Part shown: piece after piece, positions 16,795 through 62,798 of the stretch | Position numbering within the stretch: the stretch's first letter is position 1 | How the letters are laid out: every line of letters starts with the position of its first letter | NCBI GenBank assembly: GCA_951640195.1 | Contig: OX621176.1 | Coordinates: 62,001-126,000 of the forward strand | Source: Porpolomopsis calyptriformis | Taxonomy: Eukaryota > Basidiomycota > Agaricomycetes > Agaricales > Hygrophoraceae | DNA length: 64,000 bases | Reading direction: 5' to 3' | Notes under the pieces: model-generated | Databases searched by the model: none | What the model was told of the DNA's origin: nothing | The model's input: the letters and a program-made list of their open reading frames with translations, nothing else | Translations under genes and position numbers: made by a program

Positions 16795-16829
16795 GTTTTG
16801 GTAGTTGTAGTTGGCACTGAATGAGGTTC

Positions 16830-17095
16830 GTCGTCGTCAAATCTGCAACTCCGACTCTTATCTTCGAGCTTGCGCCTCGGTGGAGAGAAATCATCAAAGG
16901 AAAAAAAGAAAACTGAGTTCGACCACCTTTCTGCCGACTCGCTCGAGCTTTCCTAGGTGAGCAGCCTTGACTTTGGCCAGTTCTACAGGCTTACAGTCGC
17001 CTGACAGATATCCATCCCTTATACCCTGACCTTCGTCAAGCTGAGAATCAATCTCATCGAGTCAGAGAGTGTATTCGCATCATTGGCGACTCCCA
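16830..17095 (+). pseudogene. CRN N-terminal relic, copy 1
   Basis: Fragments match the CRN N-terminal domain in the same order as the gene at 60050-62362: LREIIKGKK-like residues, a piece reading SADSLELS in a shifted frame, an intron-like stretch starting after CTTTCCT, then ISIPYTLTFVKLRINLIESES. The frame is broken more than once and no NTPase follows. The duplicated copy is at 21680-21900. Confidence 0.55.
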
Positions 17096-17744
17096 TTCCT
17101 CCTTCCACTCAGGCGATCCTCGACTAATAACACCACAACCAATCAAACTTCAGGCTGATATCGAACTTATATGTTACACTCAAGCCCAGTGAGAAAGAGA
17201 GCAGTGAAATTGTCCCAAGTTAGTAGCACCATCTCTGCACCAACACTACGGGCAACGTTGGTGATGGCATGCTAGGCGGTGATCGCTTGCTGACTGTGAT
17301 TTCTAGAATGCTGCTGTAGAATGGCGCGAACGCGCAATTCAGAGTACTATCGAAGACGATGGGGAGGGGAGGTCTGGTTGTGAAGATGAAGGTGACCGCT
17401 TACTTTCCCATCAGTTGTCATTGCAATGAATACTAACTTCTAAGGCGGTTTCAGAAACAGAAGAACAAGACTTTGGCGCAGCTCATGATGGATGCTGGTC
17501 AAGAAAATGCAGAAGTGTCAGGCAATGAGGATGAGGATGATGCCGTGTAGCTTTGGGAGGCATCACAGCCCCCCAGCCCGAGTCGAGTGCGATGGCATCC
17601 AATCAAGATAGAAAAAAAGTGTATCAAGCAGTTTTAAGAGGGATCAAGCACTCTCAATCACTCTGAGGTTTTTGCTGATGACAGGAGTGCCGATTTAATC
17701 AGGCCGGGTCAGTTACCCACTTTCCTTTTTTTTTTTTTCGTTCC
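17096..17744. other. No supported gene
   Basis: Up to 17392 this is the end of the duplicated block, with eroded coding-like pieces (EWRERAIQS-like residues). From 17393 to 17740 it is single-copy, with short frames (for example one ending in NEDEDDAV at about 17550) that I cannot assign. Confidence 0.4.
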
Positions 17745-18330: not shown

Positions 18331-18475
18331 GCTATGATACCACCAGTCAGAATTGCCTCATCAGAAAGATTATCGGTATCCCATTCAAAGATTTTATAAT
18401 GGAATACTTTAAAGAAAGGGAAAATAACGAATTAGCGAAAAGGAATGCCAGGATCCAGGATATGATAAGGGTCAG
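18300..18475. repeat. Left arm of inverted flank around duplication copy 2
   Basis: Sequence from the end of the methyltransferase relic to GAATGCCAGGATCCAGG matches the reverse complement of about 22258-22440 with substitutions and small gaps. The identical core AAAAGGAATGCCAGG continues through ATCCAGGATATGA on both sides. Confidence 0.7.
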
Positions 18476-18591
18476 TGAGATGATTGTTACGGAAGAAAAA
18501 AAGGTAGTACCAACCGCACTCAGAGCCTATTCATATAATACTGGTCCATCAAGCTGTCCTAAGCCTGTGGTGAAAGTGAGGGATGGTCCAT

Positions 18592-20138
18592 TCAGTTAAG
18601 AAATACAGCCCTCGCGGTAAAGACAATCTTGTCTGTTGTAAATGATGGGCCAAACCGCCACTCATCTGGGTTGTCATTGTCGTGAGGGCTGATGGCGGAG
18701 ACACCTGTTTGCAGGAGCTATCAGTGATTGGACTGATGTCGAAGAAAGCACTCACTAAGGCCATCTTCAGAGTTGGAATCATTGCAAGGCGAGTCTGTTG
18801 ATTGTGTTGAGGCATTATAATCAAGATCGGATGTTGAGGCGACCCTCAAGTTACCAGGTTGTCCACACCGAGACTGAGTTTGGAGAGTGAAACCTACTTC
18901 CGCAATTAGTCTAGGAGGCACATTGGTTGAAATGGAGCTACTCACCCTTCGTATCACCAAATGGGCCAGGAGCCACGGCCTGGTTTCCACCAGTAGCTGC
19001 TCGGGCCTTCTTTGGGCCCTTGCCAGATGATCTATCCCCTTTGCCACCTTCGGTCTTTCTCTTAGACGGAGCCCCACCGCCCCTACTCCAACCATCACCA
19101 CCCCTTCTACTATCGTTCCCGCTGCCACCACTCGGGCCACTACCGCCAGGACCATCACCACTTCCAATGTGAGCCTCCGGATATGCGTCATGACTTTGCA
19201 AATTGAGAGTGTCGCGAATGATAGAAGCCAATCGAATATCTTCACAATCAGACAAGTCATATTGAAGTCGTTCGAAGAGAGCACCGAGGATAGCACCTGC
19301 TGGGACTGGCAGCCGCCAGAAACGCTTTTCTTCGAAACCTGGCATGTTGGGCGAGAGTGGAATATAGCCTGGGTTCATGCTATCGTCGTTGACAGACAAT
19401 GGATCAAAGATGCGAGCAGCACGCATGGCAGTGGAAGAGGTACTGGAGGGGGCGGTGACAAATTTACTGCCTCGAATGATGGACAGGTGGGGTAAATACA
19501 GTGTAGGGATTTTCCCTTTGGCTAGTCGGGTCGGATCAAGGGTTACCATCGTGAAAAGTCCCAAGTATGGGAAAATGGGTTTGGGGTCGGGCAATTCTAC
19601 CCTGAGCCCGCTACGGGCATCTGACAGAAGATCCAAGACCTCATTTTTTGTAGCTTCAGCATGGCATGAAAGTCTCAAAAAGCATGGCACACCTTGTGCA
19701 GTGGTTCTTGACGTGCTTTAGGAGTATTCGTGACGTAATTTTGAAGATATTGAAGGATCGGGATTGGGAGAGAAAGGACGATGAAATTCTGGGTAAAGTA
19801 GGCTTGACAGCTTGCACACTCTGTGATATTCCGTCCATCTGCTTGAGAAAGTGAGAGCTAGAATTACTTACGAACCATCCCATTCGTCGGGGAATTCCTT
19901 TTATAATCTTCTGGTAAAATTCCGAGCCTGACTGAATTGCGAACCTGAGGGGATAGTTAGAGCCATATCAAGTTGCTGGGAAGCTACAAACGTGGCGTTC
20001 CCCAGCTGAAGCTGCATCGATAATGTGAGCGCATTGACTGGTTGTGGTGTCGGTCAAGCAAATGATACAGCGATAACCGTATGTTTGGCGAATGGCGCTC
20101 ACAGCAGTCCTGGAGAATGATGCTTGAGAGTCTCCCAT
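18592..20138 (-). CDS. HNH nuclease-type protein, family 3, copy 2
   Basis: This is the duplicate of 13737-15283, with the same start (MGDSQASFSRTAV), the same zinc-type HNH residues (CIICLTD, QCAHIID, CASCQAYF) and the same introns and stop. Differences are single substitutions, for example in the Gly-rich linker (GGDGWSRG for GGDGPSRG) and near PNMPGFEEK. The frame is intact, so both copies could be expressed. Confidence 0.75.
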
Positions 20139-20325
20139 GGTGGAATGGTGGAAGTCGACACTAAGGAAAAACATTCTCGACGTAAGGATATTTTATACAT
20201 CTACGCTAGGAAAGAGTCAAGCTATTTTCGAGTTTCCGAAGTGAATGTAGTCTAGTTCAAAAGTGTACAGTGGGCGAGGGACTCTCTAATCAAGTTACCT
20301 GTTTTAATCATCGTTCAGTTTGGCA

Positions 20326-21648
20326 TCAGGCCAGGCAAGAAAGAAAACGCACAGTTGTCCTCCATTGCTGAACTTTCACTCGGCTAGCCTCCTGCTCATG
20401 CAACTGTTCCTCCTCCTCTTGCTTCTGTCTCTCTGCGGCCATTGGTTTAGGAGTAGGTCCCTTGACAAACCTGGAGAGTAGAAGGACAGCATCCATCGCG
20501 TCAAGCATTTCGTCCGACATGTCACGGTGAGCCCTCTTTATGGTTCTTTTTCTACCGAAGCTTTTACCGGGTTCATAGTCACCATCGCGGGGGTCATCAG
20601 TTTCACTGATTTGATCGTCATCGTCGCGAGGCTCAGGGGGGGGACGGGGAATGGATTCATAGTGGTCCACAAAACGGGCTTCCATTAGTTGGGAAATTTC
20701 CGGCCCGGCCTTCCAGCGCCTATAGACAGCAACACCATACATGAAATCGAGGATGATGCTGGGTGGTGAAGTACCCGTGCGAGCATCCCGATCTCGAACT
20801 GGATCATAGCTAAGGTCCTGTTCCAAGTGTTGCAGCGTAAGGCGACTGGGGGGCATTGCATCTTGCTCGACCCTGGGGATATCGCCAGGATCCAAAGCAA
20901 AGTTAGGGGTCTAGAAATCACCCACTTCAGAAAATGTCCGAATTTCTATCTACTGCTCACATACGTTTAGGAAGGCGACCATCCCACAGCCAAATGCAGA
21001 ATGCAGATTCTTGCTCAAAAATATCCCGTTCTCGATGGAGTCGATACTAATCTCAAGATCTGGAACGGGATGGTACAAGTGGCCCCGATCTTGAATCACT
21101 ACGGCGATGTACTGGAGGGGGGGTTAGTCAGAGGACGACATGGGACAATCTTGAGTGATACCTCGTCACCATTGCTTCTGGGGATGATGTGTGCTGCGTC
21201 ACAAATCCTACTAACCTTCCTAGTGAAAACACAGTGCTCGCCATCGCGGGCCATGACATCCCGACGAAAATCGCTGCGGCGTGCCGTTTGCTCAGAAGAG
21301 GTTATTTGGTCATTTAATGCCTGGTGGTCGATGAAATGGTAATCCCCTATAGCAACACAAAAACCAACTGTCAGTGGTGAACGACAAGCTTGAGAAACAT
21401 GATGCATCACCTTGGGGAGTATAGTAATATGCTTCGGCAATGGGATCGCCAGATATAGTCTTGTAGTCGACGGCAGGGCCACCTGGCTTTACAGAAAGAT
21501 CTCCCCGGGCCCCACAAACAGCAAATGTGATATATCGAAGCCATTTGAGATGGTTTATGGAGAGTCTCTCAATGTCAGTGGTGGGGATGGAGAGCGCGTG
21601 AACATGACCTTGGCCTTGGATAGACAAATAAATGTTGACCATGTCCAT
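20326..21648 (-). CDS. HNH nuclease-type protein, family 4, copy 2
   Basis: Duplicate of 15471-16794. The start is ambiguous among ATGs at 21672, 21648 and 21642; MVNIYLS matches the start of copy 1. The N terminus has one GQ unit fewer. The core reads RRDVMARDGEHCVFT...CDAAHIIPRSNGDE, so the HNH residues are kept, although the TG after CVF has become TR. The final exon differs mainly at its beginning (HLEQDLSYDPVRDRD). Confidence 0.7.
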
Positions 21649-21679
21649 TGTCGTCTGTGGTGCGTGGTGCATGACCCTA

Positions 21680-21900
21680 ACTTCGAACTCAACTGCTTGC
21701 GCCTTGGTGGTGAAAAGACCATCAGCTATTTGAGAGAAATCATCAAAGGAAAAAAAGACAACTGACCTTTCTGCCGACTCTCTCGAGCTTTCCTGTCTTG
21801 ACTTTGGCCAGTTCTACAGGCTTACAGTCGACTGACAGGTATCCATCCCTTATGCCCTGATCTTCATCAAGCTGAGAATCAATCTCATCGAGTCAGAGAG
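21680..21900 (+). pseudogene. CRN N-terminal relic, copy 2
   Basis: This copy is slightly better preserved: FELNCLRLGGEKTIS then YLREIIKGKKD, a stop, the shifted SADSLELS piece, and after an intron-like gap VSIPYALIFIKLRI. The order equals that of the intact CRN gene (LKLNCLCIG, LREIIMEKKK, DADSLRLSL, VSIPYSDIK). Confidence 0.6.
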
Positions 21901-22257
21901 TGTGTTCGCATCATTGGCGACTCCACTCAGGCGATCCTAACGAACACGATTACGCGACGACTACCACAACCAATCAAACTTCGGGCTGATATCGAACTTA
22001 CATGTTACATCAAGCCCAATCAAGGTGGCCTTGCGAGCCGGTGAGAACGAGAGCAGCGAAATTGTCCCAATCAAAGCCAAGTTAGTAGCACCACCTCTAC
22101 GTCCTGAGCACTAACACTACGGACAACATTGGTGATGGGATGCTAGGCGGTGGTCGTTTGCCGACTGTGATTTCTAGTATGCTGCTGTAGAGTGGCGCGA
22201 ACGTGCAATTCAGAGTACAATTGAAGACGATGGGGAGGTCTGGTTGTGAAGATGAAG

Positions 22258-22440
22258 GTCATATCCTGGATCCTGGCATTCCTTTTCGCTAGTTCGTTGT
22301 TTCTCCTTTCTTTGAATTCTATTATATTGGATGGGATACTGATAGACTAATATAATATCGTTATCTTTCTGATGAGGGGAATTCTAATACTCACCCCCTC
22401 TTAACGAGTATCATAGCCACTGGCCACTCCACCTCGACTT
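22258..22440. repeat. Right arm of inverted flank around duplication copy 2
   Basis: Reverse-complement partner of 18300-18475. It begins TCATATCCTGGATCCTGGC at the edge of copy 2 and runs into the 3' end of the intact methyltransferase gene. Confidence 0.7.
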
Positions 22441-45101: not shown

Positions 45102-45213
45102 TGTTGGGATATGTACAATCACGACACCATTGATACAAATGTACATGCGTATCGATTATGTAATCTTTAGTATTTTCCTTAATCTGACATTTTTCATCTG
45201 ACCAACTTCATCA
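45102..45213 (+). repeat. Copia 5' LTR (112 bp)
   Basis: TG...CA repeat matching 51430-51541. It is short even for Copia. Confidence 0.95.
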
Positions 45214-45225
45214 GGTTATGAGCCC
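45214..45225 (+). other. Copia primer-binding site, half initiator-tRNA-Met type
   Basis: GGTTATGAGCCC directly follows the LTR and is complementary to GGGCTCATAACC, the anticodon stem-loop of initiator tRNA-Met (anticodon CAT). The gag ATG at 45218 lies inside this site. Confidence 0.75.
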
Positions 45226-45591
45226 TGGTTCACCAATGTCTGATTCTATACTCACCTCCAATTCCCAATCCTTGGTCATTCCAAAACTTCGAGATGATGG
45301 CTCCAACTGGGCAGATTATGAGCTGAGGGCTATGCAAGCGATGGGCTCAAAAGGCCTCGTACCCCACTTGAATGGACGATCCAAATGGCTAGTGGATCTG
45401 GTTGAGCTTAATAGTGTCCCCCAGTACAATGGCAAAGATGCCACTGATGAACAAATCGAAACTAGAGAGAAGAAAATGCTTGACTTTGATCAGCGGGAGT
45501 ATCTTGCGCAACATCTACTCCTCTCAACAGTCTCACCTCGTTTGTCACAAAAGATCATGAAGCTTACCACTGCCAAGGACATGTGGGATAT

Positions 45592-45794
45592 TGTTAAGAA
45601 TTACACTAGGAACGTGCGCTTCTGATGACAGTTAAGACCACTTGACTAAAACGTCATAGTATTGGACTTACCCAATACTGTTGTTCCCAGTATATATACC
45701 AGATTACACGTGATTGGCTATGAATCTGCTCGACATTCATAAGAGATGGCCTCAGCACGCTCGATCTCATGTCTCGAATTTCAGATTCGTGACA
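45592..45794 (+). mobile_element. 203-bp solo LTR inside Copia gag
   Basis: The insert begins TGTTAAGAATTACAC and ends GATTCGTGACA, flanked by the duplicated target GATAT (45587-45591, 45795-45799). Counting the insert and one GATAT as 208 bp, their removal changes the frame by one and makes the two gag frames continuous, as expected for an insertion. It contains a TATATATA box near 45694. Best explained as a solo LTR of an unrelated element. Confidence 0.85.
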
Positions 45795-48700
45795 GATATG
45801 GTTAAAGCAGATGCGACCACGAAAAGTGTTCTTCACCAGGTCAATATGCTCAATGCGCTACAGAACATGAGATGCGCATCGTCTCTGGACCCGAAGATAC
45901 ATCTTGCTGAGCTGAAGGCTCATCTGGCTAAGATGACAGAGCGGGTGGAGTATCTGAGGGTGACTAGCTCACCTGTTTCTGACCCGATGCAGGTCAATAT
46001 AATGATTGCATCGATGCTGGAGGTTTACCATGCCACTGTGCAGACGGTCGAAACCACCATGAAGGTCACTGGAAAGTCTATCCAGCCTGATGACCTAGCA
46101 TCAATTTTCATCCAGGAAGCGGAACACCGCTTGATTGCCAGTGGGCAAGAAAGGGCTGCTGAGGCGGCGATGTTTGCCTTGCAAGGTTCCCGAGGATCTG
46201 GATCGAAATGCACAGAAAAGAAGTCCGCAATGACTAAAACTTGCTATAACTGCCAAAAGGTTGGTCACCTGAAGGCAATGTGTTATGCCCCAGGAGGCGG
46301 CATGGAGGGGCAAGGTCCCCATCAACTGAAGGCGAAAAAGAAACTTGAGGCGGCTAATGTAGCGAAAGTATCAGAAAACGATGACTTGTTTGCATTCACA
46401 TGCACCTTGGACTTTAAAGCCATCGTATCTAACCTCGGGTTGGATGGATTGGGTCGCGATATGATCCTCGATAGTGGCGCCAGTCATCACTTTTGCCCGG
46501 ATAGGGCAAGGTTTGAAAACTACATACCGATTGACCGTGAAATCAAAACTGCCGATGGAAGGACGTTTAAGGCAATCGGAACTGGAGATGTAAGGATTGA
46601 GCTACCTAACGGCAGTTCATCATCATCAGTGATGTTGAAGGACTGTGTGTATGCACCGGATTTAGCCTTCACACTTGTTTCTGTCAGCTGACTAGCTCAA
46701 GCTGCCAAGTCTGTGGTCTTCGGAAAAGACCATGCAATTGTTACTCACCCTCGTGGACATGTGATAGCGAAGATCCCACGATTCCAAGGGTTATATAGGA
46801 TTACACCCGGAACTGAAACCCGGTGTGATCACGTGAATGCCGTGACTACCAAGATGACACTGATGGAGGCCCACCGGAAGTTGGGCCATATTGCTGTGTC
46901 GACAGTAAAGCGTATGGTATCGAATGGAATGATATTGGGTATCGAGATTAACCCATTGTCCAAGGAAGAATTTTGTGAGCCATGCATAAAGGCAAAGGCG
47001 GTACGAAAACCATTTCCAAAAGAGTCACTTACCCGAGCAACACAATACAGTGAATGAGTCCATTGGGATCTCTGGGGACCTGCTTTGACATCTAGCCTAG
47101 GTGGGAAGCACTATGCTGCCTTCCGAAAAGATGACTACTCCTGTGAGACACAAGTCTACTTCCTCACAAAGAAAAGTGAAACTCTCAATGCCTACAAGAA
47201 GGACAAGGCAGCCATTAATACTCAACAGAATGGTGCCCGGATCAAATACCTCCGGTGTGATCGAGGGGGAGAATTCCTGAGTAATGACTTCGATCACCAC
47301 CTCACTACGAAAGGGACAAAACGTGAACTTACTGTCCATGACTCTCCTCAACAGGATGGAGTCTCCGAACGTGGTATGCGTACCCATGCTGAACACGCCT
47401 GTGCCCTCCTTTTTGCGTCGGGATTACCGCGATCCCTTTGGGCCGAAGCTATGCACCACTGTGTGTGTGGCTAGAGAACCGGACTGAAACCCGAGCACTG
47501 AATGGAAAGACCCCATATGAGATGGTATGTGACTGGAAACCATTTCTGGGTGGGATCCATGAGTTTGGAGCTGCCGCATATGTGAAAGACTTGCATGCTG
47601 GAAAGCTTGATGAATGTGCACGGAAAGCCTGCTTTGTTGGATACGATTCCGAGAGCAAAGGGTTCCGGATTTACTGGCCTGATAAGCGAACCATCAGTAT
47701 CAAACGGGATGTTGTGTTCAACCCGGAAGACCTACATCTGCTTCAGGGTGAAGGTATTATCATCCCCGAAGATACCCTGGATGAAGGGGAGAAGAATAAA
47801 GTCATCCAGCACTATCCCAATGAACCTAGACACCTACCCCCCAATTCCAAAGTTGTTCCGGAAACTCCGAAAATTCCAGAAACCTGGAGACTTAACCCGG
47901 AAATCCCGGAAATCCCAGAATTGGCGCCTACCTTTGGATGCAGAATGCGTACACGTTTACCCCTGGGATCTTACCGGGATATAGCAAGGGGTGTTTATGA
48001 ACCTGCTGCCCTAGCATATGCTGAGGCATTCATCTGTGATCTCGGTCTGGAGAGTGGTGATAAACCAGGGGGAGTAATCCCGCTCAACTTCAATTCCGAT
48101 GATGAAACCCTTGACCCGCTTTATGCGATAGCAGGATCCATGGGCTCGGAACCATGCTCAATGACTGAAGCACTCGAGGGGCCACATGGAAAGGCATGAG
48201 ATGCTGCTCTGAAATATGAGATAGGTCAACTCCAGAAACTCCGGACTTGGGAGATTGTCGACCTACCCCCCGGAAAACCCGTAATCCCATGTTCCGAAGT
48301 ATTGAAGGAGAAACGGAATGCGGATGACGTTGTGGATACACGTCGGGTTCGCATAGTTGCTGGTGGACACCGCCAAACGTATGGTGTGAATTACACAGAA
48401 ACGTTCTCATCAGCTGCGAAGATGCCATCTGTCCGAGTCATCCTCTCTTTAGCTGCTCAACTTGACTGGGAAATCCACCAGGTAGATATCAAGAGTGCTT
48501 ACCTCAATGCCCCACTGAAGGAGGAGGTCTATATGTGGCCTCCGAAAGGAGTTCTGAAACCCGGAGAGGAAGGGAAGGTCTGTCATCTGCTGAAAGCGAT
48601 GTATGGACTAAAACAGGCTGGGCATGAATGGTATGAAACACTTTCTGCAGTGTTCTACAAGCTCGGATACCAACGATCAAGCATGGACCACTCTGTATTC

Positions 48701-49952
48701 TTCAAATGCAATGCCCACGAATCTGTCATTGTTGCTGTAGCCACAGATGACATGGCCATTGCCGGGTCATCTATTCGAGCCGTAAATGGATTCAAACGAG
48801 GACTTCGAACCCACTTTGAGATTGCCGATATGGGAGATATCCACTGGTTCCTAGGATTCGAGATAAGAAGGGACAGAGCGACCAGGACTATCTCCATCAA
48901 CCAATGAGCCTATATAGAGGCAATGGCAACAAGGTTCGGACTATCGGATGCCAAACCCGTAAATCTCCTGGCTCTGCCTGGTCAGGTGCTATCTGGAGAT
49001 CAATCACCTGCTACACCACATCAGATAAGTGAGATGCAGGATGTACCTTATGCCGAGGCTATAGGTCATGTTCTCTGGCCAGTTATGATATCCCGGCCGG
49101 ATGCAATATTCCAAGTCAGGCAGCTTGCCCAATTTGTTAAAAACCCAGGAATGGCACACTGGGAGGCCTTAAAACACCTCATTATATACCTCAACTCAAC
49201 GAAGGACCTATGGCTGGTCTTGGGTGGGGGTGAACGGTCAGACCCGGTGATATACACTGATGCCGACTGGGGATCCCAGTCGGATAGTGTCACAACTGTA
49301 GTTGCAAGTCTTTTCGTCAATCACAAGGCAGGCCTTGGAGCTCAATAAGTCTAGTAGGATATAGAAGAAAGTTCTGACAGGGACGTCTTCGTAAAGAGTG
49401 ATGATTCCTTCTGAATTAAGTTTTACTTCTACAAAGAAGTTGTTCTGCGGGTTGAATCCGTTGCGTGCCTCTGCTGAGAGTTTAGGGAATATGGGCATGA
49501 ACGGTTGGCTCAGTAGTTATGGTTTTGTGTTTCTCTTTTCTTGTTCTGATGGAAAAGAAGTCTGATGATTCTGATTGCGTTCGTGCTACTACAAGTAATC
49601 TCACAGGAGGACAAAGTGATGATCCACTTCGCCCTCAGGGTTTATATAGTATTTCTAAAATAGGAGTCACTATGAGTTAGCTTCCGCAGTCACCCCATTT
49701 TCTATTGTTCACAGCCCCCAGTTTAAGGTTTGCTATTGTTCTTAGTCATACTGCGCAAGGCTGTGTGCTTCTGGTGACTCAATTCTATTAGGCATAGCCT
49801 TCCGCAGCATTAGGCTGTGTTGTCTCATAACTGGTTTCTATAGTTCTTCTAGTCATGAGATCGCCGTTGTTTCTATCTCTTGTCCAGCGTATCGGGTTTC
49901 TCTTCTTTGACTGAGGAACCTCCTTTTGGTCCTCCCTTTGTGTCTGGGCATA

Positions 49953-49960
49953 TAAAAGGT
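49953..49960 (+). promoter_or_regulatory. TATA box of the element-borne gene
   Basis: TATAAAAG, 46-53 bp before the ATG at 50006, with a short C/T-rich leader between. Confidence 0.6.
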
Positions 49961-50005
49961 GTGGGGTTGTATCCCTATGCTTCAGTTCAATCCTTGTCAA
50001 TCATC

Positions 50006-50833
50006 ATGACTCCTTCCCACCAAGGCCACTACATTCGATTCTTCAAGCAGTCTGGAGTGGTGCACCGCACTGCTCCTGTCTTTCTCGATTGCGATTCATT
50101 TCATTACTACCTCCAGCGCATCCCCTCCGACGCTGACCTCTGTTGGTCTTCCTTTTCCTGCTTTGCTTGCAGTGGCAAGCACAAAGTCAAGAAGTGTCCG
50201 TTCGTTCGCTGGCCAATCCAGCATGCTTGTGGCTTGATGGAGGATCCGCTTGGTGAGTATTTTGTTTTGTCTTTATTAGTCTGTGTTTTTTGATAATAGG
50301 CTTTCCCTTTCTTAGCTTGGGATGATGACGCCCCTCCCCCTACTTCCCAGCTCCCTTTGGAGGAGCAGGTTAATTGGGGGTCTGACAAGTGGGCTGATTC
50401 TCTCCCTCCTGTCAAGAAGGAGGCAGTCAACTGGGCTGCCAGTCCCCCCTTCCGTCCTTGGACCCCTGGTCCGATGAGTTCTATTTCTAGTGGTAAGCTC
50501 TCAATTCTCTCGCCCTCTTCATGATTTGTTGACTCTTTATTCTTAGTGGAAGATTTGTCATTGTTGACCAATGTCAGTGTCAAGATCGAGGAGGAAGAAG
50601 TTCCTCCTAGTTTGTTATGGAGTCCCACCAACGATTGGTTGGGTGAGGAAGCGAGAAAGATAGCAGTGAGTTTTGTTGAGGGGAAGGCTGCCGAGTTGCA
50701 GGCCTCCGGTGGTGACACTAATGGGGCAATCTACTGGGGTAATAAGTTGGCCGCTTTAGATGGTCAAGTAGTTTCTAGTTTCATAGAGTTCTTGAGAGAT
50801 AGTATGGTGCAGGAGATTGCCAAGATGGACTAG
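50006..50833 (+). CDS. Element-borne 236-aa protein with CCHC-like zinc motif (unknown function)
   Basis: Exons 50006-50252, 50316-50492 and 50547-50833 sum to 711 nt (237 codons). Both introns have GTGAGT/GTAAGC donors and TTAG acceptors. The protein opens MTPSHQGHYIRFFKQSG, contains CFACSGKHKVKKCPF (C-x2-C-x3-H-x4-C, close to a retroviral zinc knuckle), then a Trp/Pro-rich acidic middle (VNWGSDKWADSLPP, EDLSLLTN) and a helical C terminus (WLGEEARKIAVSFVEGKAAEL, SSFIEFLRDSMVQEIAKMD). No transposase, integrase or polymerase motif is visible. It has no stops and no CpG-type damage, unlike the host Copia. It could be a Gag-like or nucleic-acid-binding accessory protein, or a captured host gene. 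Confidence 0.7.
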
Positions 50834-50893
50834 TTTAGGTTTTTTATTAGTCGGACATGGACTCCTCCTTTTGTACAAGTAGTTTCTGCTGCC

Positions 50894-50899
50894 AATAAA
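50894..50899 (+). terminator. AATAAA polyadenylation signal of the element-borne gene
   Basis: AATAAA 61 bp after the TAG stop at 50831-50833 and before the end of the element. Confidence 0.5.
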
Positions 50900-51420
50900 G
50901 ACAGCCCCCCTTCCAAAGAGAACAGGCATAGAGATAAAAGGAAAAGAATGAAGAAAAGAGAGGAATTTTAAGAGAGAGAACGCCAATTTCATGACAGATA
51001 GACACTCAATATCTGGATATGTGATGCAGATGGGAGAAGGGACTGTCACATGGAGCTCGAAGAAGCAGCCTATCGTGGCCCTCTCAAGTACGGAATCCGA
51101 GTACATTGGGCAAACCCATGCCCTGAAGGAACTGTTATAGGTACAACAATTTTTGGGAGAACTCACCTCAAAATTCACGAACCCAACTACTCTCTACTCA
51201 GATAACCAAGGCGCGATTGCCCTCGTGAAGAACAACAAGTTCCATGCTCAATCCAAGCACATCGACATCCAATATCATTTCATCAGGGAATCGGTAACAA
51301 ACAAGGATGTCGAAATCATCTATGTACCTACCTCCGAAAACATCGCCGACATCTTCACGAAAGCCCTCCCGGCCCCGAAGTTTATGTACTTCCGCGACAA
51401 GCTAGGACTACGTTGTGATT

Positions 51421-51429
51421 GAGGGGGAG
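51421..51429 (+). other. Copia polypurine tract
   Basis: GAGGGGGAG immediately before the 3' LTR, the primer for plus-strand synthesis and typical of Copia elements. Confidence 0.85.
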
Positions 51430-51541
51430 TGTTGGGATATGTACAATCATGACACCATTGATACAAATGTACGCACATATTGATTATGTAATCTTTAGTA
51501 TTTTCCTTAATCTGACATTTTTCATCCGACCAACTTCATCA
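51430..51541 (+). repeat. Copia 3' LTR (112 bp)
   Basis: Partner of 45102-45213, followed by the TGGGA target duplication. Confidence 0.95.
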
Positions 51542-53066: not shown

Positions 53067-53478
53067 TGTCATGGTCGGAATTTTCTTTTCTTTTCTTTAT
53101 CTAATCACATGTAAACCTATCTCTTATCTTGGGATTCCCCATACTTGTCAATGGGATTCCCCATTGCCTTTCTCTGGGATTCCCCAGGGACTCCCCACTA
53201 CTCTACCTATATGCGGACATACTTCATTTCCGTTATGTTTCAACCCCTTTATGATTCGTCATCAATCACGATGACTCATTCCTATCTCTACCTCATATTA
53301 TGTCATACTGACTCACACAGATAAGTAGTCAGTATATAAAGAGTACCTCTTGTACGTATCAGACCTTAAGTCTGATTCCTCATTAGCCTACTCATAACAA
53401 GGACTTGGAACCACACCCTATATCTCTTGGGACAGAACACCCGAAGTAAAACGCATTCCAAACAACCGGTTTATAACA
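53067..53478 (+). repeat. Gypsy 5' LTR (412 bp)
   Basis: Contains three GGGATTCCCCA-type palindromic motifs near its start and a TATA box at 53333. Partner: 59563-59974. Confidence 0.95.
53333..53340 (+). promoter_or_regulatory. Gypsy LTR TATA box
   Basis: TATATAAA, 35 bp upstream of AAGTCTGATTC, which is the predicted RNA 5' end (see the self-priming finding). Confidence 0.6.
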
Positions 53479-53479
53479 A

Positions 53480-53490
53480 GAATCAGACTT
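53480..53490 (+). other. Gypsy primer-binding site, predicted self-priming
   Basis: GAATCAGACTT, one base after the 5' LTR, is the exact reverse complement of AAGTCTGATTC (53368-53378) in the LTR. An 11-nt match to the element's own RNA start is the Tf1-type self-priming arrangement. No tRNA 3'-end match is recognised. Confidence 0.6.
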
Positions 53491-53918
53491 CCTTCTGGTT
53501 CTCTCCCACTTGCTTATCCAACGCCCTCATCACTGTGATCATTGACATCACCTCTTTGTCTCTTACCCACTTCCATCCTGGCTTCTACCGACAACTCAGA
53601 TGTTGAAGAACAATACGAAGACCCTCTCTCAAGATCAACCTTTTCAGCTACAATTCGAGATCAAGAACCATCCTTTTCTTCTGCTCTCGAAGAAACATTA
53701 GCTACTCCCACCCCTGCTCCTGCCCCTCTAGGGCTGCGAACTCGATCGAGAACAAGAGGACTCTTCTCTTCATCTTCAGCCCCAGCAACAAGACCAGTTC
53801 ATCAACGAACTGCTACCCCACCAGGACGATACGGTTCTCTCTACTCCCAACTTTCTTCTGCGACATCTACACCAACACCAACAGCTCCAACAACTCCCTA
53901 CCCACAACATCAGCCAAC

Positions 53919-55079
53919 ATGTCAGGAATGTCCACCAATGCCCCCACCAACCCCCCCACCATTGACATCACAACCTTGATGGCTACTGTTCGCCAACTCG
54001 AACAAACCATCACCCAGCAACAACAACTGATCACCCAGCTCCAACAACAACAACCTCAACCTCCTCGACCCCCTCAACCACCTCCCTTACCACCTCCCTT
54101 ACCTCAACAACCCGCTCCCCCCTCCATCAAGATTGCCAAACCCGATGAATATGATGGGTCTGCAGCCAAATGTCTCAATTTTATCCAGGCTTGTTGTCTA
54201 GTCCTTGACGACAGTCAATGGTCTGACAGGCAAAAGATCACTTACGTCTTGTCATTCATGAAGATCAGTGTCACCCAATCATGGGCTCAACAGCAGACTC
54301 AAGAATTCAAACGTGTGCAATGGGTTGGAGCCAACTACGAGGATTTTATGGAGGAGCTCGAGGAATGTTTTGGAGACATTGATGTGAGAGCGACAGCGCA
54401 GGTCAAGATTCAAAAGGTAACCCAAGGACTTTCTACTGTGGACAATTATAACATACGATTCGGAGCTCTCATGGATGAAACTGGTTTCAACAACGACGCG
54501 CTCAAAGTTTTCTACCGGAATGGCCTCAATCCCGGAATTCTCGAAAAAATCTATGCCCTTGATCCCATCCCCGCCACCCTCAACACTTGGAAGTGAAAAG
54601 CTTCCATCTTCGATCGACAATGTCTCGAACTCGCACTTGAGCATCGTGCTGCTCCCCGGAGTAACTACTATGCTCCCAGGGAGACTGTGGCTCGAACGAC
54701 GACCCGAACTCCCTCCTCTGCTCCTGTCAAACAGGAGACAACTTCCTCATCATCAATATCGCGCGTTCCGCGAGGCAACTGCTATTGCTGCGGAGAGCCA
54801 GGTCATTGGGTGAACAAGTGTCCAAATTCCCCTCTCGCCTCTTCTCCGTCAGCACGCCCATCGAGTAGTGCCCCTGCCAGACAACGACGAGGAAGACCAA
54901 CCACAGGGCGAGGTCGAGGACGAAACATTCAAGGTATCGAGACGGAACGAGTCGACGAAGTGGTTTCCCCAGCTACTACGGAGGAAACTATTCGTGTGGT
55001 GGACAACTGCGGGATTGATTGCTGGCTGAAGGAGAGAAAAGCTCAGCTCATCAAGGAACTGAAAGAACAGGGTTTTTAG
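53919..55079 (+). pseudogene. Gypsy Gag, one in-frame TGA
   Basis: Starts MSGMSTNAPTNPPTID with a Gln-rich coiled coil, a proline stretch and the Gag core (PDEYDGSAAKCLNFIQACC, WVGANYEDFMEELEECFGD, GLSTVDNYNIRFGALMDE). After a TGA at 54594 (probable Arg) the same frame continues to the zinc knuckle CYCCGEPGHWVNKC and an Arg/Gly-rich segment, ending at TAG 55077-55079. An overlapping frame upstream (53542-53979) has no ATG start and may be leader. Confidence 0.88.
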
Positions 55080-55081
55080 GG
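55071..55081 (+). promoter_or_regulatory. Gag-Pol minus-one frameshift site candidate
   Basis: GGTTTTTAGGG overlaps the gag stop codon. Slipping back one base on the T-run turns GGT-TTT-TAG into a frame reading GFLGSPNTL, which leads directly into protease. Confidence 0.5.
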
Positions 55082-58000
55082 AGTCCGAACACTTTGCCTA
55101 CCGTTACGGACGTATCTACTCAAGAATGTACCACCACTCCATGCAATCTATTTCGAATTCTTGGTACTCTTGAAGAAGGCAATCTCGGACTCATTTTGGA
55201 CGTTTGGATTGAAGCTACCGACACTGGTCGACGTGTTCCAGCCACTGCTCTGGTTGATAGTGGAGCCTCTGGAAATTTCATGGACGAATCCTTCGCAACT
55301 CGCCACAATTTTACTCTAACACGATTGGAAACCCCAATCCCCATACGGAATGCCGATGGATCTGAAAACTGAGGTGGACCCATTGAGAACAATATTGATA
55401 TTTGGTTAGAGGCTCCCAGAGGACACAATGAACGGATCCGATTGGAAGTGACCGATCTTGGATCCAAAACGGATATTATCCTCAGCTTCCTGTGGCTCAA
55501 AAAGCACAACCCCAACATCGATTGGAAAGAGGCAACACTGGCTCTGGATAGCAAAGATTTCCCTCTTCCACAATGGATAGTGAATGATGCGGAGTCACTG
55601 GGAATGGAATCAGTCATGCTGGCCATGAATCGACGCGTATCGAAGTCAGATGAATCCTGAGCCAGCACGGTGGAAGAAGATATGCGAAAGTTTGTACCAG
55701 AGGTATACTGGAAAGACTACTCTGGCGTCTTTGCCAAAGAATCCTTCGACCGCCTTCCACCGCATTCGGAGTTCGACTACGCCATAGAACTGGACGAAAC
55801 TTTCAGACCAGTCAAAGGTGCGAAATACGCGATGTCCCCTCTTGAGATGGATCATTTACACAAGTTCATTGATGAAAACCTATCCACTGGACGAATACGA
55901 ACTTCCAAGTCGAAACAAGTCTCTCCGTTCTTCTTTGGAAAGAAAGCCGAAGAAGTGAATGCTAAAGGTAAGAACGCTGGCTTACGCCCTATTGAAGACT
56001 ATCGCTACCTTAATGAACACACAGTCCCTGACCACTATCCCCTTCCTCTTCTTCACCAAATACTCCAAAGACCCAAGCTCTTAACAGCATCTCTATTCAC
56101 GGTCATGGATATCCGATGGGGATTCAACAATGTCAGGATCAGAGAAGGCGACGAATGGAAAGCTGCTTTCATTACTGAAGCAGGCACCTTCGAGCCCACC
56201 ATCATGTTCTTTGGTTTGCGGAACTCACCAGCCACCTTTCAACAGATGATCGACACAAGATTCAAAAAAGTCCTGGACTCTGGAAACGTCTTTATCTATA
56301 TCGATGACGTGCTTGTTTGTGGAGACGATTTACAGGAGTTACGACACTGGACCTTCAAAACTCTAGATATCATGAAGAAACACGGACTCTCATGTAAACC
56401 TGTCAAATGCCAGTTTGAGAAGGAAGAAGTCATTTATCTCAGAGTCGTCCTATCCAAAGGATGAATCACCACCAATCCGAAGAAGGTCGATGCTATTATG
56501 TCTTGGCCTATTCCAGAAACGGTGAAACAACTCCAATCCTTCTTGGGCAGTGCGAACTTTTGGCGAAGATATATCAAGGATTTCTCCAAAGTCGCTACCC
56601 CTCTCTACAAACTCTTACACAATGAAACTGTGTGGGAATGGACTCCTTGGAGACAAGAAGCCTTCGACAACATCAAATCCCTCTTGACGAACGCGCCCGT
56701 TCTTCATATTCCTGATCGCGATCTCCCTTATTGTCTAGAAACCGATGCCTCTATCATTGGGATCGCAGGAATACTCTCTCAGCTTCATGATGGACACTGG
56801 AAGCCTGTTAGCTATCATTCAAGATCTACTTCTCCTGCCGAAAAGAACTACCCAACCCACGATCTAGAACTCCTGGCAATCATTGACTCTTTCAAACAAT
56901 GGCGCCACCTCCTTGAAGGAGTGAGACACGACATTCTCATTAGGACAGACAGTTTGGCTTTACGATATTTCTCCAAAAATCTTCGCTTATCAAATCACCA
57001 GACTCGTTGGTCTGAATATCTGTCCAGATTTGGGTTCATAATTGAATACGTTCCAGGTAGGAAGAACAAGGCCAATGGCTTGTCCAGGCGCCCGGATTAC
57101 TTGCCCGACATCGAAGCCGACGTGGAGAACAAAGTTCTGATAGCGCGCGACCAATGGATTAATTCAATTGTCAAGTTGTCAAATTCAAACCTTCTCTCTA
57201 GATTACGCTTCAAAACCCCACTCCCACAGAAAATCCAAGATAAACTCGAGGATGCCTCACTCGCTTGGACCCAAGCTGATGGGCTTGTACGCGATGTTGA
57301 AGGTCGGATAGTGGTGCCGGAGGAAGTATCTCTGCGCACAGACATTATATGACTGTCCCACGCCTACCCCCACGCTGGCCACCCTGGCATTGAGAAGATG
57401 AAGGAACTCGTCCTTCATAACTTTATTTGGGATGGTGCCCCACAAGACATCACCAACTACATTCGATCCTGCCCCACTTGTCAACAAAACAAGAACTTCC
57501 CCTCGAAGCTGTCAGGACTACTCCAACCCATACCCCCCTCTATGGAACCATGGAAAGAAATCACCGTCGATCTCATCGTTGAACTCCCCAAGTCACAAGG
57601 CTACAATGCTGTAATGGTCGTTGTCGATCGCTTCACTAAACGTGCTCACTTCATTCTGACAACTTCCAATCTTTCATCAGAAGGTGCTGTGAAACTCTTT
57701 CGGAATCACGTCTGGAAACATCATGGATGGCCCCAAAAGGTTATATCTGATCACGGAGTGCAATTTGTGTCCAAATTCACAGAAGCTCTCAATAACTCCT
57801 TAGGAATCATCTCCGGTCTCTCCACTGCATATCATCCCCAAACGGATGGTCAAACGGAACGTACTAATCAAGAACTCGAAGTCTATTTATGTTTCTATAC
57901 CAACTTTATGCAGGACGACTGGTCAGAATGGCTCGCTTCTGCGGAATTCGCCTACAACAATCGGCAACACTCTGCCACTTCACAATCACCATTCTATATG

Positions 58001-58621
58001 GAATACGGATGTCATCCCCACCTTCCCACAGCTATTCTGGATCAAAGCAATGTGCCCGCAGCAAACACCTTTCACGAACGCCTTACACGCGCACAGCAAA
58101 ACGCCGAACGATCCTTATCAAAGACAACAGAGTCAATGAAGAAATACGCTGATTGAAAACGGAAACCTTCACCCTCCTACGAAGAAGGAGATCTAGTCTG
58201 GTTGGATACCAAGAATATCAAGATGACACGACCCTCGAAGAAACTCGACAATCGACAGACCGGACCATTCAAGGTCTTGAAGAAGATATCGGACCTTGCT
58301 TATCTGATCGACATTCCCGGAACATGGAGACTACACCCAGTCTTTCACGTTTCACTCCTGAGACCCAATGTCGGAAATGAATTGCTCCACCCTGATGTCA
58401 TCGACACATCACGGCCTCCTCCTGATCTGATCGAAAATGAAGAAGAATATGAGGTCGAATCCATATTACAACATTCCAGAGCTAAACGACGCCGAAAGTA
58501 TCTGGTCAAATGGAAAGGCTATCCGATCGAAGAAGCCACTTGGGAAGATTGATCAAACATTTTACGACACGCCAAGGAAATTGTGAAGACGTATGAAGAC
58601 TCAATTCAAATGGCGACCTGA
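55082..58621 (+). pseudogene. Gypsy Pol with C-terminal chromodomain, six in-frame TGA
   Basis: A single frame without indels: protease (ATALVDSGASGNF), RT (FTVMDIRWGFNNVRI, FIYIDDVLVCGDD), RNase H (LETDASIIGIAGILSQL), zinc finger (HAGHPGIEKM...SCPTCQQNK), integrase core (DLIVELPKSQGY, SDHGVQFVSKF, YHPQTDGQTERTNQELE), the GPFKVL and LHPVFHVSLLRP segment, then a chromodomain (EEYEVESILQHS, YLVKWKGYPIEEATWED). TGA occurs at 55370, 55658, 56462, 57350, 58154 and 58550, mostly in contexts where Arg is expected. Normal end TGA at 58619-58621. Confidence 0.92.
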
Positions 58622-58687
58622 TTCTATTCATTCGTTTGTCATCATCCCGTCTGCCAAGAATTGACCTCTATTTTTAGAACCACTCCT

Positions 58688-58693
58688 TATAAA
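58688..58693 (+). promoter_or_regulatory. TATAAA box upstream of the third Gypsy ORF
   Basis: TATAAA 88-93 bp before the ATG at 58781, followed by an AC-rich leader (CAACAATCAAGACCACTCA) like fungal 5' leaders. Confidence 0.45.
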
Positions 58694-58780
58694 CTACAAG
58701 ATGTCTCCACTTTCCTTCACAATTCAATAACTTTGTTGCAACAATCAAGACCACTCAACCAAAACCGCAACAACTTCATC

Positions 58781-59527
58781 ATGCCTGCTACATGATCCAC
58801 ACGATCCCCCTCCCCTCAAGTCGCCATCCGGCGTTCTGGACGAATCCCTTTGTCCGCCATCCGCTCCCCTACTCCCGGTCCCTCCACCTCTGCTTCCTCC
58901 CCCCGGCAATTACGTTGACAAGCCCGCGCTCGCGCAGAAGACTTCTTCAAGGAGTATCCTACTCAAACTCCCCCTCCCAAAGATCCTGCCATCACCATCT
59001 CCCATCTCACTGTCCACAGCAACAGCGTCAGCAACTGGAATCGCGAACTCCGTCAAGAACGCGAAGTTTTGCAAGCCGAGCTTAAAGCGTCAGAAAAGAG
59101 TGCCTTATTTTGGAAGAACCATTGGGATCAGAGTGAGTTGAAAGTTTGGGAACTCCAGCGCCAGAAGAGACGAACGTGGGTTGATTGCTACAACGTCACT
59201 ACCCGCGCCATCATCGCCAAGCTCGTAGAAGAGAGTTGTCGAAGCGAACGACTCACCAGGGAAGACTTCCTTCGGGCACAACGAGACCTCGCGACAACGG
59301 AGACATTGATCGAATACGGAGAATCAGTCAAATATCCCATCAACGTCGACCTAGGGTACCTGATCGACGACGACGACGTCGCGACAGTCCGAGCCCCCTC
59401 CCCCATCGAAATGACTTCGGAAGTCAAACTCATCGCTTCCCCCTCAGTGGCCATTGAGGCCCCCACCACCGAGGAAATCCCGACTCAGGCCTCAGAAGAC
59501 GAGACGACCGACACTGCCCAAGTTTGA
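58781..59527 (+). pseudogene. Third ORF of the Gypsy element (248 codons), two in-frame TGA
   Basis: The frame from ATG 58781 to TGA 59525-59527 encodes a Ser/Pro/Arg-rich start, then EDFFKEYPTQTPPPKDP, a predicted coiled coil (NRELRQEREVLQAELKASE, KVWELQRQKRRTWVD) and an acidic tail (YLIDDDDVATV, EDETTDTAQV). TGA codons at 58793 and 58916 sit in Arg-rich context and match the decay pattern of gag and pol. No signal peptide, membrane segment or envelope-like feature is seen. Position is that of env in other Gypsy elements, but the sequence does not support an envelope. Function unknown. Confidence 0.65.
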
Positions 59528-59562
59528 AATTCGGGACGAATTTCCTTTAAAGCTGAGGTGTA

Positions 59563-59974
59563 TGTCACGGTTGGAATTTTCTTTTCTTTTCTTTATCTAA
59601 TCACATGTAAACCTATCTCTTATCTTGGGATTCCCCATACTTGTCAATGGGATTCCCCATTGCCTTTCTCCGGGATTCCCCAGGGACTCCCCACTACTCT
59701 ACCTATATGCAGACATACTTTATTTCCGTTATGTTTCAACCCCTTTATGATTCGTCATCGATCACAATGACTCATTCCTATCTCTACCTCATGTTATGTC
59801 ATACTGACTCACACAGATAAGTAGTCAGTATATAAAGAGTACCTCTTGTACGTATCAGACCTTAAGTCTGATTCCTCGTTAGCCTACTCATAACAAGGAC
59901 TTGGAACCACACCCTATATCTCTTGGGACAGAACACCCGAAGTAAAACGCGTTCCGAACAACCGGTTTATAACA
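59563..59974 (+). repeat. Gypsy 3' LTR (412 bp)
   Basis: Partner of 53067-53478, followed by the GCCCC target duplication at 59975-59979. Confidence 0.95.
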
Positions 59975-60049: not shown

Positions 60050-62362
60050 TTATGCCCTTGACATTGGAATGCGAGCTGTGTATAACCCAAGGTCATCAAC
60101 TATGGAGCCACTCGAAGCAGGACAAGAGAATGAGACAAGGTCATCTGGGATGACAAACACAAAATGCCAGTTTGCGCGGGAAGGTAGTCCACTACAATTT
60201 GCAAGAAAGTTAACAAGGCCATCCTTAATGCTGTGATCATGGCCTCTGGTGCATTGAAACACATTGAGATATCCTCCACATAGTATAAAAGAGTCGAGAG
60301 CGACTTGTTGGCCACTTCGGGGTACGTAGTAGACGTCTGGTCAAATCTTTAGCTTGGTGGTGGTATCGTAGATGAATGTGCTGCCAACATCAACATGGAG
60401 GGAGAAGACTTGCTGTGCCACTCCATAAATGGTGGCAGAGTGAGGCTGTTTGGTGCTGAATAAAGCATGCCAGTGGGAATTGATATGGTTCGACCGAACC
60501 ATTGGCGTAGCATCCAGATCAATATGCGTTCTGAAATGCCAATGGACGAAAGCTTCAAATATTGAACCAGTCATGCCAAGTTTCAAAAAGTTGGCCCACA
60601 TATTCAACAGCTGATCTTCAGTGAACTCCTCAAGCCTCTGTGCAACTTGTTGCTCAACTGCAGCTGAGATGAGACTAGTTGTAAAGCTCCGGTCACCCAA
60701 TGCAGATCCTCGCATGTGCCGAATCAGGCAGATTTTATGTGAAAAGGCATCAAGTGACAATCGGGCAGCGTTTGAAAAAATCTTTCTGAAGAGATCGGGA
60801 TCAGTTCTATCGATTAAGGTGTCACGTTCAGAGATGTGATCTGTAACTTCATCAGGAGTCATTTCAAGGCAGAAGCATGCAGTGGGGCCTAAGCGATCAT
60901 ATCTCTGTGCCACGTCATCTCTATTTGAATATAGGATATTGGCACTGTGGTAGAAGAGAGGGCTCAGCACGAGTGGGTCATGAGAGGAACATGCTCACGC
61001 ATACTCGATCTCTGCCCTTGTCCAAGGATTCATTATCACCTGATGGAATGTCCATGTCTGCATAATCCCTGACCAGCAAGCTGGATGAGGGGAGGTGAGA
61101 TAGATGGGGAAGACACCAGGTGGGAAATGGGCCAGGGTGCTTGGAATGCTGGAGGATGAGTAAGCAGAATCAATGATAGTCCATATGCGTGAGCTAAATT
61201 TGTTGAAGGCAAATGTAGCAGGGATGACAAAAACCCCTTCAGAACAGAAGAGATAGAGAATGGGTCCTTGAAACCACAGAGAAACAGACTTTTCCCCAAG
61301 ACGTCGACGCAGGACGTAGTAGGCCCAGAATAATTTTCCTATGCCCAAAGGAGTATCAAAAAACATGCTTCTCGTATCAATGATGGAGTACTGACCGATT
61401 CCAGGCTGGCCTGTGACAACAATTGCAGCTGGATGATATGACTTGCCCTCCTCGTACTTATCTTCAACCCATTTATAGATTCTGAGATATTCAGCATGAA
61501 TGAGAAGTGGCATCCATTTGGTGTCAATGATTAGGGGTGGGATCGCAGGAAGGAGATCACCATCATTCTCTCCCCCATTCTCCTCGTCATTAGGATTAGG
61601 GACTGAATCCTTAAGAGAAGTGTGCTCCTGAGGTAGAGGAACGCCCCAAAACTGCTCATAGAAATGCAAGATCAGATCCACCTGGGCGTTATCATGGCGA
61701 AGTGGATCAAACCCTGAAAACATTATTTAAGGCAATGAAGTAAAGAGTAACATAGAAGCTGTACCGAACTTCGCGTAACAAGGGCCATTATCCACAATCA
61801 AAGAATCTGGTAATAAATATCAATACTATAATGCATATAGGAATGAGAAGATATCCAAAGGAGAGATGGAAATGAGTCAGATGAGAATGGAAGACATGAG
61901 GTTGAGTGCTAACACAATGCCCACTCACCCTTTTTAGGTCGTTTACCCCTCTCTTCATCGGAACCAATGCCATCAAGGTCATGCTTGCAGGATTCAGGCA
62001 TGATAGGCACCCACACAAGAACATGGATGTGGAGATACTTGGGAGGTTCCTGAAAGAGCTGATTCAGCTTGAAAGGAGGAAGCATTGGCTGAGCCTTGAA
62101 TTGCGTTAGATCTTGTATTGGCACCTTGATATCGCTGTAAGGGATGGATACCTGTCAGGCGACCATAAGCCTGGAGCCAGCCAAAGTCAAGACCACTCAC
62201 TAGAGAAAGCCTGAGTGAGTCAGCATCAAGGTGGGCAAATGCATGTTTCTTTTTTTCCATGATGATTTCTCTCAAATCGCCAACAGTCTCCTCCTTATCA
62301 ATCTTAACAGGGAAGGTGTTCTCCAGGGGATCCCCAATACACAAGCAGTTGAGTTTGAGCAT
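60050..62362 (-). pseudogene. Crinkler (CRN)-type P-loop NTPase gene with one in-frame TGA
   Basis: Exon 1 (62362-62201) encodes the CRN ubiquitin-like domain: MLKLNCLCIGDPLENTFPVK, VGDLREIIMEKKK, LDADSLRLSL; exon 2 continues VSIPYSDIKVPIQD and YLHIHVLVWVP. Other introns: 61807-61928, 61714-61764, 61339-61395 and 60945-60998, all GT-AG. The P-loop is split by an intron and joins as VTGQPGIGKLFWAYYVLRRR; Walker A is GxxGxGK but has Leu where Ser/Thr is usual. RDDVAQRYDRLGPTACFCLE follows. A TGA at 60343-60341 interrupts before PDVYYVPRSGQQVALDSFIL and the family-typical LVSFSCPASS end (stop at 60050). CRN proteins are proposed effectors or conflict NTPase-nucleases; the role here is unknown. 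Confidence 0.75.
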
Positions 62363-62404
62363 GATGGTAAAGATAGAGTAGAGTTGAGAGTTACATAATA
62401 TCAT

Positions 62405-62798
62405 GCACAGTCACGCTCAGTAAAAATGAAAAGTCGCTTCATCTGCACCAATATTATTTACGCAAAATTTGTGACTTTTCTAGTCGACTTCTTTTCTTTT
62501 TTTAAATCTCTGGACAAGTGTCAAGCTCTGTGCAAACCGCTGAGCATTGTAAACAACGTGCACCGCCGTCGAAGATCGGCCCTTATCTAGATTTTTCTCA
62601 AATCTTGCAGGGAAGGCTGTAGGTTAGGGTTATATTATCTTATTGTTAGATGACGACAATTAACGGAATCTAAATGACAATAAGTCATACGGTGGCTTCA
62701 GCTAGGCGAATGGATGATCCGCTGAGTGTACGCCTTTTTGTTCTAAAAACCTATATGAACGCACCGTTCCCTCACGTTTGCTCGTACATCCCACCTGA
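62405..62798. other. Divergent promoter region, CRN gene and next gene
   Basis: AT-rich, with no gene. Contains the 35-bp repeat at 62556-62590. Confidence 0.45.
62556..62590 (-). repeat. 35-bp repeat shared with 13537-13571 (inverted)
   Basis: Exact reverse-complement match to 13537-13571, about 195 bp upstream of the CRN start codon. Confidence 0.75.

Follow-up and report, generated by a model that had tools for sequence, protein, structure and literature searches.

A 1.7-kb insertion in a Copia element of Porpolomopsis calyptriformis is very probably the solo LTR of a Ty3/gypsy chromovirus with a complete spliced gene opposite gag-pol

How a complete gene with two introns can be carried within a mobile unit that has the ends of a long terminal repeat (LTR) is the question raised by a locus of the basidiomycete Porpolomopsis calyptriformis. 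The window, the whole stretch of 64,000 nucleotides that was analysed, contains a 1,709-bp unit bounded, as read from the window sequence, by TGTCA...TGACA termini. The original prediction had described these LTR-like ends together with a GATAG target duplication, and both are present (Table 1). Equally, the predicted restoration of a Copia RNase H frame upon removal of the unit was confirmed by the joined flanks, which read YTDADWGSQSDRHSISGYVM, and by empty sites in paralogous Copia copies. The joined 300-base flanks are spanned by 22 of 34 genome matches at 93-97% identity (21 over query positions 1-300 and one over 1-298), and the window's own match breaks in two (query 1-150 and 146-300) because of the 5-bp duplication. 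With its intact frame and perfect duplication, a recent insertion of the unit is plausible. A second Copia copy (G000:C7:459413-459578 and C7:466282-466420) is broken by about 6.7 kb at most 11 bp from the same RNase H position, with flanks that overlap by 5 bp (query 135-139), which suggests a separate insertion event at almost the same place. The window furthermore contains a Fungal_trans domain (PF04082), the N-terminal domain of a Crinkler effector at 61997-62410 (PF20147, 2.2e-14), and a second gypsy element at 53067-59974 with pol domains, whose 412-bp LTRs are 97% identical. Two stretches of about 3.8 kb, 13594-17393 and 18448-22259, form a direct repeat with 93% identity, and one open frame therein has no Pfam match.

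A search of the genome with the unit as query recovered at least 40 full-length copies and one partial copy (the best 40 of 293 candidates were scored). Equally, a pattern of the LTR end with at most two mismatches has 252 genome matches (117 + 135) and the reversed-pattern control none, a multiplicity far beyond chance. In six places two copies enclose an internal region and the outer 5-bp duplications match. Four of these pairs (L009, L047, L048 and L049) consist of two like-oriented LTRs that are 5,341-5,356 bp apart; in the pair on C2 (L029 and L031) the LTRs are separated by 12,248 bp and the outer 5-mers match, and in the pair on C14 (L050 and L051), flanked by TTCCC and TTCCC, about 3.9 kb interrupts the 3' LTR. 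The window copy matches the LTRs of all six paired elements from end to end with 89-93% identity. The 1,709-bp unit is thus read as what it very probably is, the solo LTR of a Ty3/gypsy chromovirus with a complete gene opposite gag-pol. Of the options considered in the original prediction, an LTR-like element in its own right without movement functions is not supported, as gag-pol is flanked by the same sequence in six places; the option of an unusually long solo LTR that contains a gene turned out to be right. The genome-wide search proposed at that stage thereby found paired direct copies around gag-pol as well as many single copies flanked by 5-bp duplications.

The single copies were analysed in an alignment of 79 complete LTRs, comprising only copies that match the query from 1-10 to 1700-1709, which were taken from the top of two ranked lists as a non-random sample of the 252, with about 19 further loci and the partial copies in L034, L046, L050, L051, L070, L084 and L085 outside the alignment. 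An internal region adjoins 12 of these LTRs. The other 67 are unpaired, and 55 of them have perfect 5-bp duplications (50 different sequences), four are off by one base and eight are mismatched; a duplication match of 6 bp occurs in none of the 79. Such numbers of clean copies without internal region can also be seen as favouring a stand-alone non-autonomous LTR-like element of the TRIM or LARD kind that carries the gene and is moved in trans. The six places in which the unit flanks gag-pol within outer 5-bp duplications, and the PBS-like and PPT-like stretches, which in the paired elements lie outside the unit, argue against such an element. Equally, the internal junctions occur only 16 times on the PBS side and 16 times on the PPT side in the genome (at most three mismatches each). 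The reverse transcriptase (RT) of the same chromovirus family has 15 genome matches with at least 88% identity. Set against the 252 LTR ends, the junction counts, as expected from solo-LTR formation, lead to an estimate of about 16 elements that keep the internal side and some 220 solo LTRs. None of the fetched loci showed two units enclosing a short non-coding core with PBS and PPT. With LTR pairs found, the stand-alone element was rejected as highly improbable.

Not all copies in the sample are independent. The loci L037 (C9:443444-445551) and L038 (C1:3656789-3658896) are 99% identical over the whole fetched length, flanks included, in inverted order, and the same holds for L071 (C1:3714745-3717154) and L072 (C9:385424-387832), which indicates that a segment was duplicated between C1 and C9. 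At L070 (C7:543428-545837), an LTR copy lies inside another LTR of the same family, the sequence on either side of it matching the LTR in opposite-strand orientation.

The solo LTR in the window presumably would have originated from recombination between the two LTRs of a chromovirus. Separate frames of the internal region of L009 match gag, protease, RT, RNase H, the integrase zinc domain, rve, SH3_Tf2-1 and chromo in Pfam; these frames are interrupted, and their order protease-RT-RNase H-integrase is that of Ty3/gypsy, with a terminal chromodomain of the integrase (PF00385, 1e-15). Relatives of this integrase on short metagenome contigs are as much as 64% identical, and those from named organisms are 45% (Ceratobasidium) and 44% (Calocera) identical. 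In L009, L047, L048 and L049, the first 40 internal bases are identical save one difference in L048, and a purine-rich tract precedes the 3' LTR. About 25-30 nt past the TATA box of gag-pol, the LTR contains a stretch with 11-nt pairing to the PBS in L009, L048 and L049 and with one mismatch in L047; in the alignment this site reads CACTTCGTCCT in 38 copies, CACTTCATCCT in 26 and CACTTTGTCCT in 13, with two other variants. The 11-nt match between PBS and LTR suggests self-priming as in Tf1, and, if R starts at this site, the gene would lie wholly in U3.

The 236-aa gene is on the strand opposite gag-pol in L009, and alignment of the five remaining pairs to L009 gives opposite strands for gene and gag-pol there as well. 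The TATA box, the two consensus introns, the 236-aa open reading frame and the AATAAA before the end had all been predicted, and all were found at the positions given (Table 1). The reading frame, 50006-50833 in the window, corresponds to LTR positions 719-1546 and encodes 236 aa in the window and 236-237 aa in intact copies. Three further gypsy elements in this genome have LTRs of 326, 412 and 430 bp, so that the LTR discussed here is about 1.3 kb longer, a surplus that exceeds the 0.95 kb from the TATA box of the gene to its AATAAA; its length of 1.7 kb would be explained by the complete gene carried opposite gag-pol.

Table 1. Features of the putative solo LTR, its antisense gene and the Copia target, in positions of the window.
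Feature	Position	Strand	Basis
Solo LTR of chromovirus (very probable)	49288..50996	- in gag-pol sense (U3 at 50996, U5 end at 49288)	matches LTRs flanking gag-pol; 252 ends in genome
Target-site duplication GATAG, left copy	49283..49287	.	empty site in paralogous Copia copies
Target-site duplication GATAG, right copy	50997..51001	.	empty site in paralogous Copia copies
Decayed Copia element, recipient of insertion	45102..51541	+	112-bp direct-repeat pieces 45102-45213 and 51430-51541; RVT_2 at 48200-48904
TATA box of gag-pol promoter	49641..49649	-	identical in 78/79 copies
Presumed 5' end of genomic RNA with self-priming sequence, CACTTTGTCCT in window copy	49608..49623	-	pairing with PBS
R and U5 (putative)	49288..49620	-	boundary inferred from TATA and self-priming site
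U3 with whole antisense gene (putative)	49621..50996	-	boundary inferred from TATA and self-priming site
TATA box of antisense gene	49950..49959	+	exact in 74/79 copies; ~300 bp from divergent gag-pol TATA
Exon 1, start codon and Cys/His motif	50006..50252	+	no indel versus window copy in 79 copies
Intron 1, 63 bp	50253..50315	+	GT-AG in 79/79; 1-2 bp indels occur
Exon 2, acidic/Pro/Trp-rich linker	50316..50492	+	sequence
Intron 2, 54 bp	50493..50546	+	GT-AG in 78/79; many 1-bp indels
Exon 3 to stop codon	50547..50833	+	conserved; helical in low-confidence model
AATAAA of antisense gene	50894..50899	+	exact 62/79, AACAAA 15/79, other 2/79

The persistence of introns in a sequence that multiplies through RNA had been considered explicable by an unspliced or an antisense copied RNA, and the orientation of the gene has borne out the antisense option. 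As the gene is antisense to gag-pol, the genomic RNA holds only the complement of the introns, where splice sites are absent, and the introns can survive replication. Intron loss is seen in none of the 79 LTR copies. Equally, intronless copies were not found genome-wide by either spliced junction, with patterns able to detect 78 (junction 1) and 68 (junction 2) of the 79 aligned copies, and the end of exon 1 has 236 genome matches with three for the control. On this sequence evidence, the intron paradox is removed by the antisense placement.

The reading frame bears the signs of a protein-coding gene. Among the exon indels of the 79 copies, counted per copy against the window copy so that inherited ones repeat in the count, 67 of 70 events are multiples of three (66 of length 3 and one of length 15), the exceptions being 2, 16 and 16; intron 2 alone has 111 one-base events, and the indels of introns and flanks are mostly 1-4 bp. 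The frame is intact in 41 copies and not intact in 38. For the full set of 3,081 pairs, sorted into seven distance bins, uncorrected pN/pS amounts to 0.15-0.28 in frame versus 0.69-1.88 in the two shifted frames. Antisense readings of 600 sampled pairs gave 0.25 (offset 1), 1.12 and 1.72, of which the low value is read as a shadow of the real frame because the 203-aa frame on the minus strand is open in just 13 of 79 copies; coding on that strand was rejected for the same reason.

Between elements, omega corrected for trinucleotide context is 0.52, 0.47, 0.34, 0.40 and 0.39 in five distance bins (0.47, 0.40, 0.31, 0.37 and 0.35 without CpG transitions), estimated from 55 pairs in the first bin and 150 sampled pairs in each other bin, with one member of each pair, and no ancestral states, as the background for the expectation. 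Between the paired LTRs of one element, by comparison, five pairs show 44 differences that are nonsynonymous and 29 that are synonymous, against an expectation of 47.4 for the former, an omega of 0.82 (z -0.92) that is indistinguishable from neutral, and stop-codon differences occur in four of the five. Variants present in at least eight copies fall on codon positions 1, 2 and 3 in 35, 23 and 91 columns, and singleton variants in 35, 26 and 33 (Fisher p = 1.2e-4 for the codon-position bias of common variants versus singletons). With pairs and columns that are not independent, a pair member as background and segmental duplicates among the copies, all from one family in one genome, these selection figures are to be read as estimates and not as exact tests. 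The difference between 0.34-0.52 among elements and 0.82 within pairs means that the frame was kept during multiplication and largely released after insertion; selection appears to have preserved the gene while the element spread, and not on the inserted copies.

Two further readings are touched by these numbers. The actual product might be an antisense RNA that, through its complementarity to the genomic RNA's 3' end, acts as a regulator or triggers silencing, with the frame incidental; from its orientation the gene transcript would indeed be complementary to the genomic RNA, and PMC7264820 discusses non-coding functions of antisense transcripts in other retrotransposons. The third-position bias, the indels in threes and the omega of 0.34-0.52 point instead to a protein, which makes the RNA as sole product very unlikely, and both roles may coexist. 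Equally, the gene might serve the host as a domesticated multicopy family, for which the 41 intact copies of the 79 and the persistence of an estimated 220 solo copies could speak. A host gene is scarcely to be reconciled with near-neutral decay after insertion, including the stop codons, and with singletons of little codon-position bias (35, 26, 33), and this candidate was rejected, a shade more improbable still than the RNA. The preferred reading is that of a protein-coding gene of the element itself.

What the protein does can be approached from its sequence to a limited extent. Exon 1 has a Cys/His motif with the spacing C-X2-C-X3-H-X4-C, which differs from the C-X2-C-X4-H-X4-C of the canonical CCHC zinc knuckle, and in 20 chosen copies seven of its Cys/His residues are invariant (H20, C29, C52, C55, H59, C64 and C75). 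The CCHC-like motif noticed originally is thus present, but neither its spacing is canonical nor has it a Pfam match. Searches of about 5.8 billion proteins returned 209 candidates for the whole 236-aa protein, none at E<=1, and two for the exon-1 alignment, none at E<=10; the protein has no Pfam match at E<=10, and the best E of 0.22 among PDB sequences is not meaningful. Since the protein database depends on gene prediction, the introns may conceal relatives. The structures modelled for exons 1 and 3 are poor (mean pLDDT 44 and 53), with exon 3 possibly helical at low confidence. A replacement for a missing nucleocapsid knuckle was rejected as a role, as L009 has the knuckle CFFCRQAGHMARAC downstream of gag. 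A retroposed cellular gene was equally rejected, there being no homologue, with the introns kept and the orientation antisense; of the 'cellular-style gene' initially described, the layout with TATA box, introns and AATAAA stands, and the cellular origin does not, as no homologue was found and the sequence evolves in the manner of an element gene. For antisense accessory proteins encoded by other retroelements, an action on the element's own promoter or RNA has been suggested, and a nucleic-acid-binding accessory protein with such an action would tentatively be the likeliest role here too, held at somewhat less than even confidence.

Taken together, the following course of events can be envisaged. 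Divergent TATA boxes about 300 bp apart would serve gag-pol and the gene, respectively. With the gene in U3, the genomic RNA would carry it once, at the 3' end and as the complement, from which the introns would not be spliceable. Reverse transcription would then place U3 in both LTRs, so that each insertion would receive two complete genes, and upon loss of the internal region one complete gene would still be left. As counterpoints, 38 of 79 frames are not intact, the AATAAA is altered in 17 of 79 copies and 12 of the 67 unpaired LTRs are without perfect duplication.

The many intact relics have consequences for the mode of action. If the protein acted freely in trans, intact relics should supply the moving copy and selection should be weak, and an omega near 0.35 runs against this expectation. 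Either action in cis, or importance at a time when copies are few, or silence of most relics might account for the value. Among the differences of the paired LTRs (L009, L047, L048, L049 and L029/L031), 155 of 161 are transitions and 101 of 160 are CpG transitions, an excess that suggests cytosine methylation of the family and methylation-driven decay and would fit silent relics. A product that acts chiefly in cis, or soon after the element has reached a new genome, for example by countering silencing, and not as a general regulator of LTR transcription, is a possibility with some weight, if an unlikely one. Purifying selection despite many intact copies, unexpected for a freely diffusing factor, speaks for it, as does the CpG-transition count with which methylation is consistent; on the other hand, methylation is deduced from the mutation pattern and the function is a sequence-based proposal. 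Somewhat more doubtful is the prospect that the gene in U3 outlives the element and that relics by the hundreds form a dispersed battery which makes the protein and supports the few gag-pol elements.

Solo LTRs are usually taken as promoter relics without protein-coding content. With an intact gene and its own TATA box in 41 of the 79 sampled LTRs, a multicopy gene family would be lost from view under LTR masking, and its members would be counted as host genes by gene callers that do not mask. Equally, the problem of introns in an element-borne gene would be solved by the choice of strand alone. Furthermore, the arrangement provides a test within one genome, where, for the same gene, the near-neutral rate can be read from paired LTRs and the selected rate from separate elements.

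Among known systems, the chromovirus resembles Tf1/sushi elements in its chromodomain integrase with SH3_Tf2-1 match, and perhaps also in its PBS, which in three of four elements is complementary over 11 nt to the LTR just past the TATA box. Tf1 is not known to have an LTR gene, whereas the LTR here measures 1.7 kb and contains one. Self-priming has been described for Tf1 and Tj1 (PMC4600332). The Boty-like Ty3/gypsy element of Botrytis is likewise fungal and has an additional gene, brtn, opposite gag-pol (Zhao et al. 2011, as cited in PMC7264820 and PMC8365987), which PMC7264820 classes with the genes between pol and the 3' LTR. The gene described here has TATA box, two introns and AATAAA inside the LTR and occurs twice per element and also in complete solo LTRs. 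Additional ORFs that run antisense between pol and the 3' LTR are furthermore listed for Grande, RIRE2, Retand, PvRetro13 and Boty, and the antisense aORFs of maize Grande (gene23, which has its own promoter), rice RIRE2 and Silene Retand are characterized as having no clear similarity to other proteins and a function that is unknown (PMC7264820). These aORFs have in common with the present gene the antisense orientation and the lack of clear relatives; as described there, they are internal and consequently absent from a solo LTR, unlike the gene here. With respect to the aORF definition, the gene is antisense to gag-pol and conserved, and its position is other than between pol and the 3' LTR. 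The literature searched, outside of which most subscription papers lie, yielded no fungal retrotransposon for which a spliced gene within the LTR is described. Among retroviruses, HBZ of HTLV-1 is a spliced antisense gene driven from the LTR with a coding sequence largely outside the LTR, and sag of MMTV is a protein gene inside the LTR in sense orientation. The gene here differs from both in being antisense, spliced and wholly within the LTR. An antisense promoter in the 3' LTR of HTLV is equally mentioned in PMC7264820. Antisense accessory genes themselves are thus known, and what would be new here is a spliced antisense gene inside the putative U3, doubled per insertion and kept by solo LTRs.
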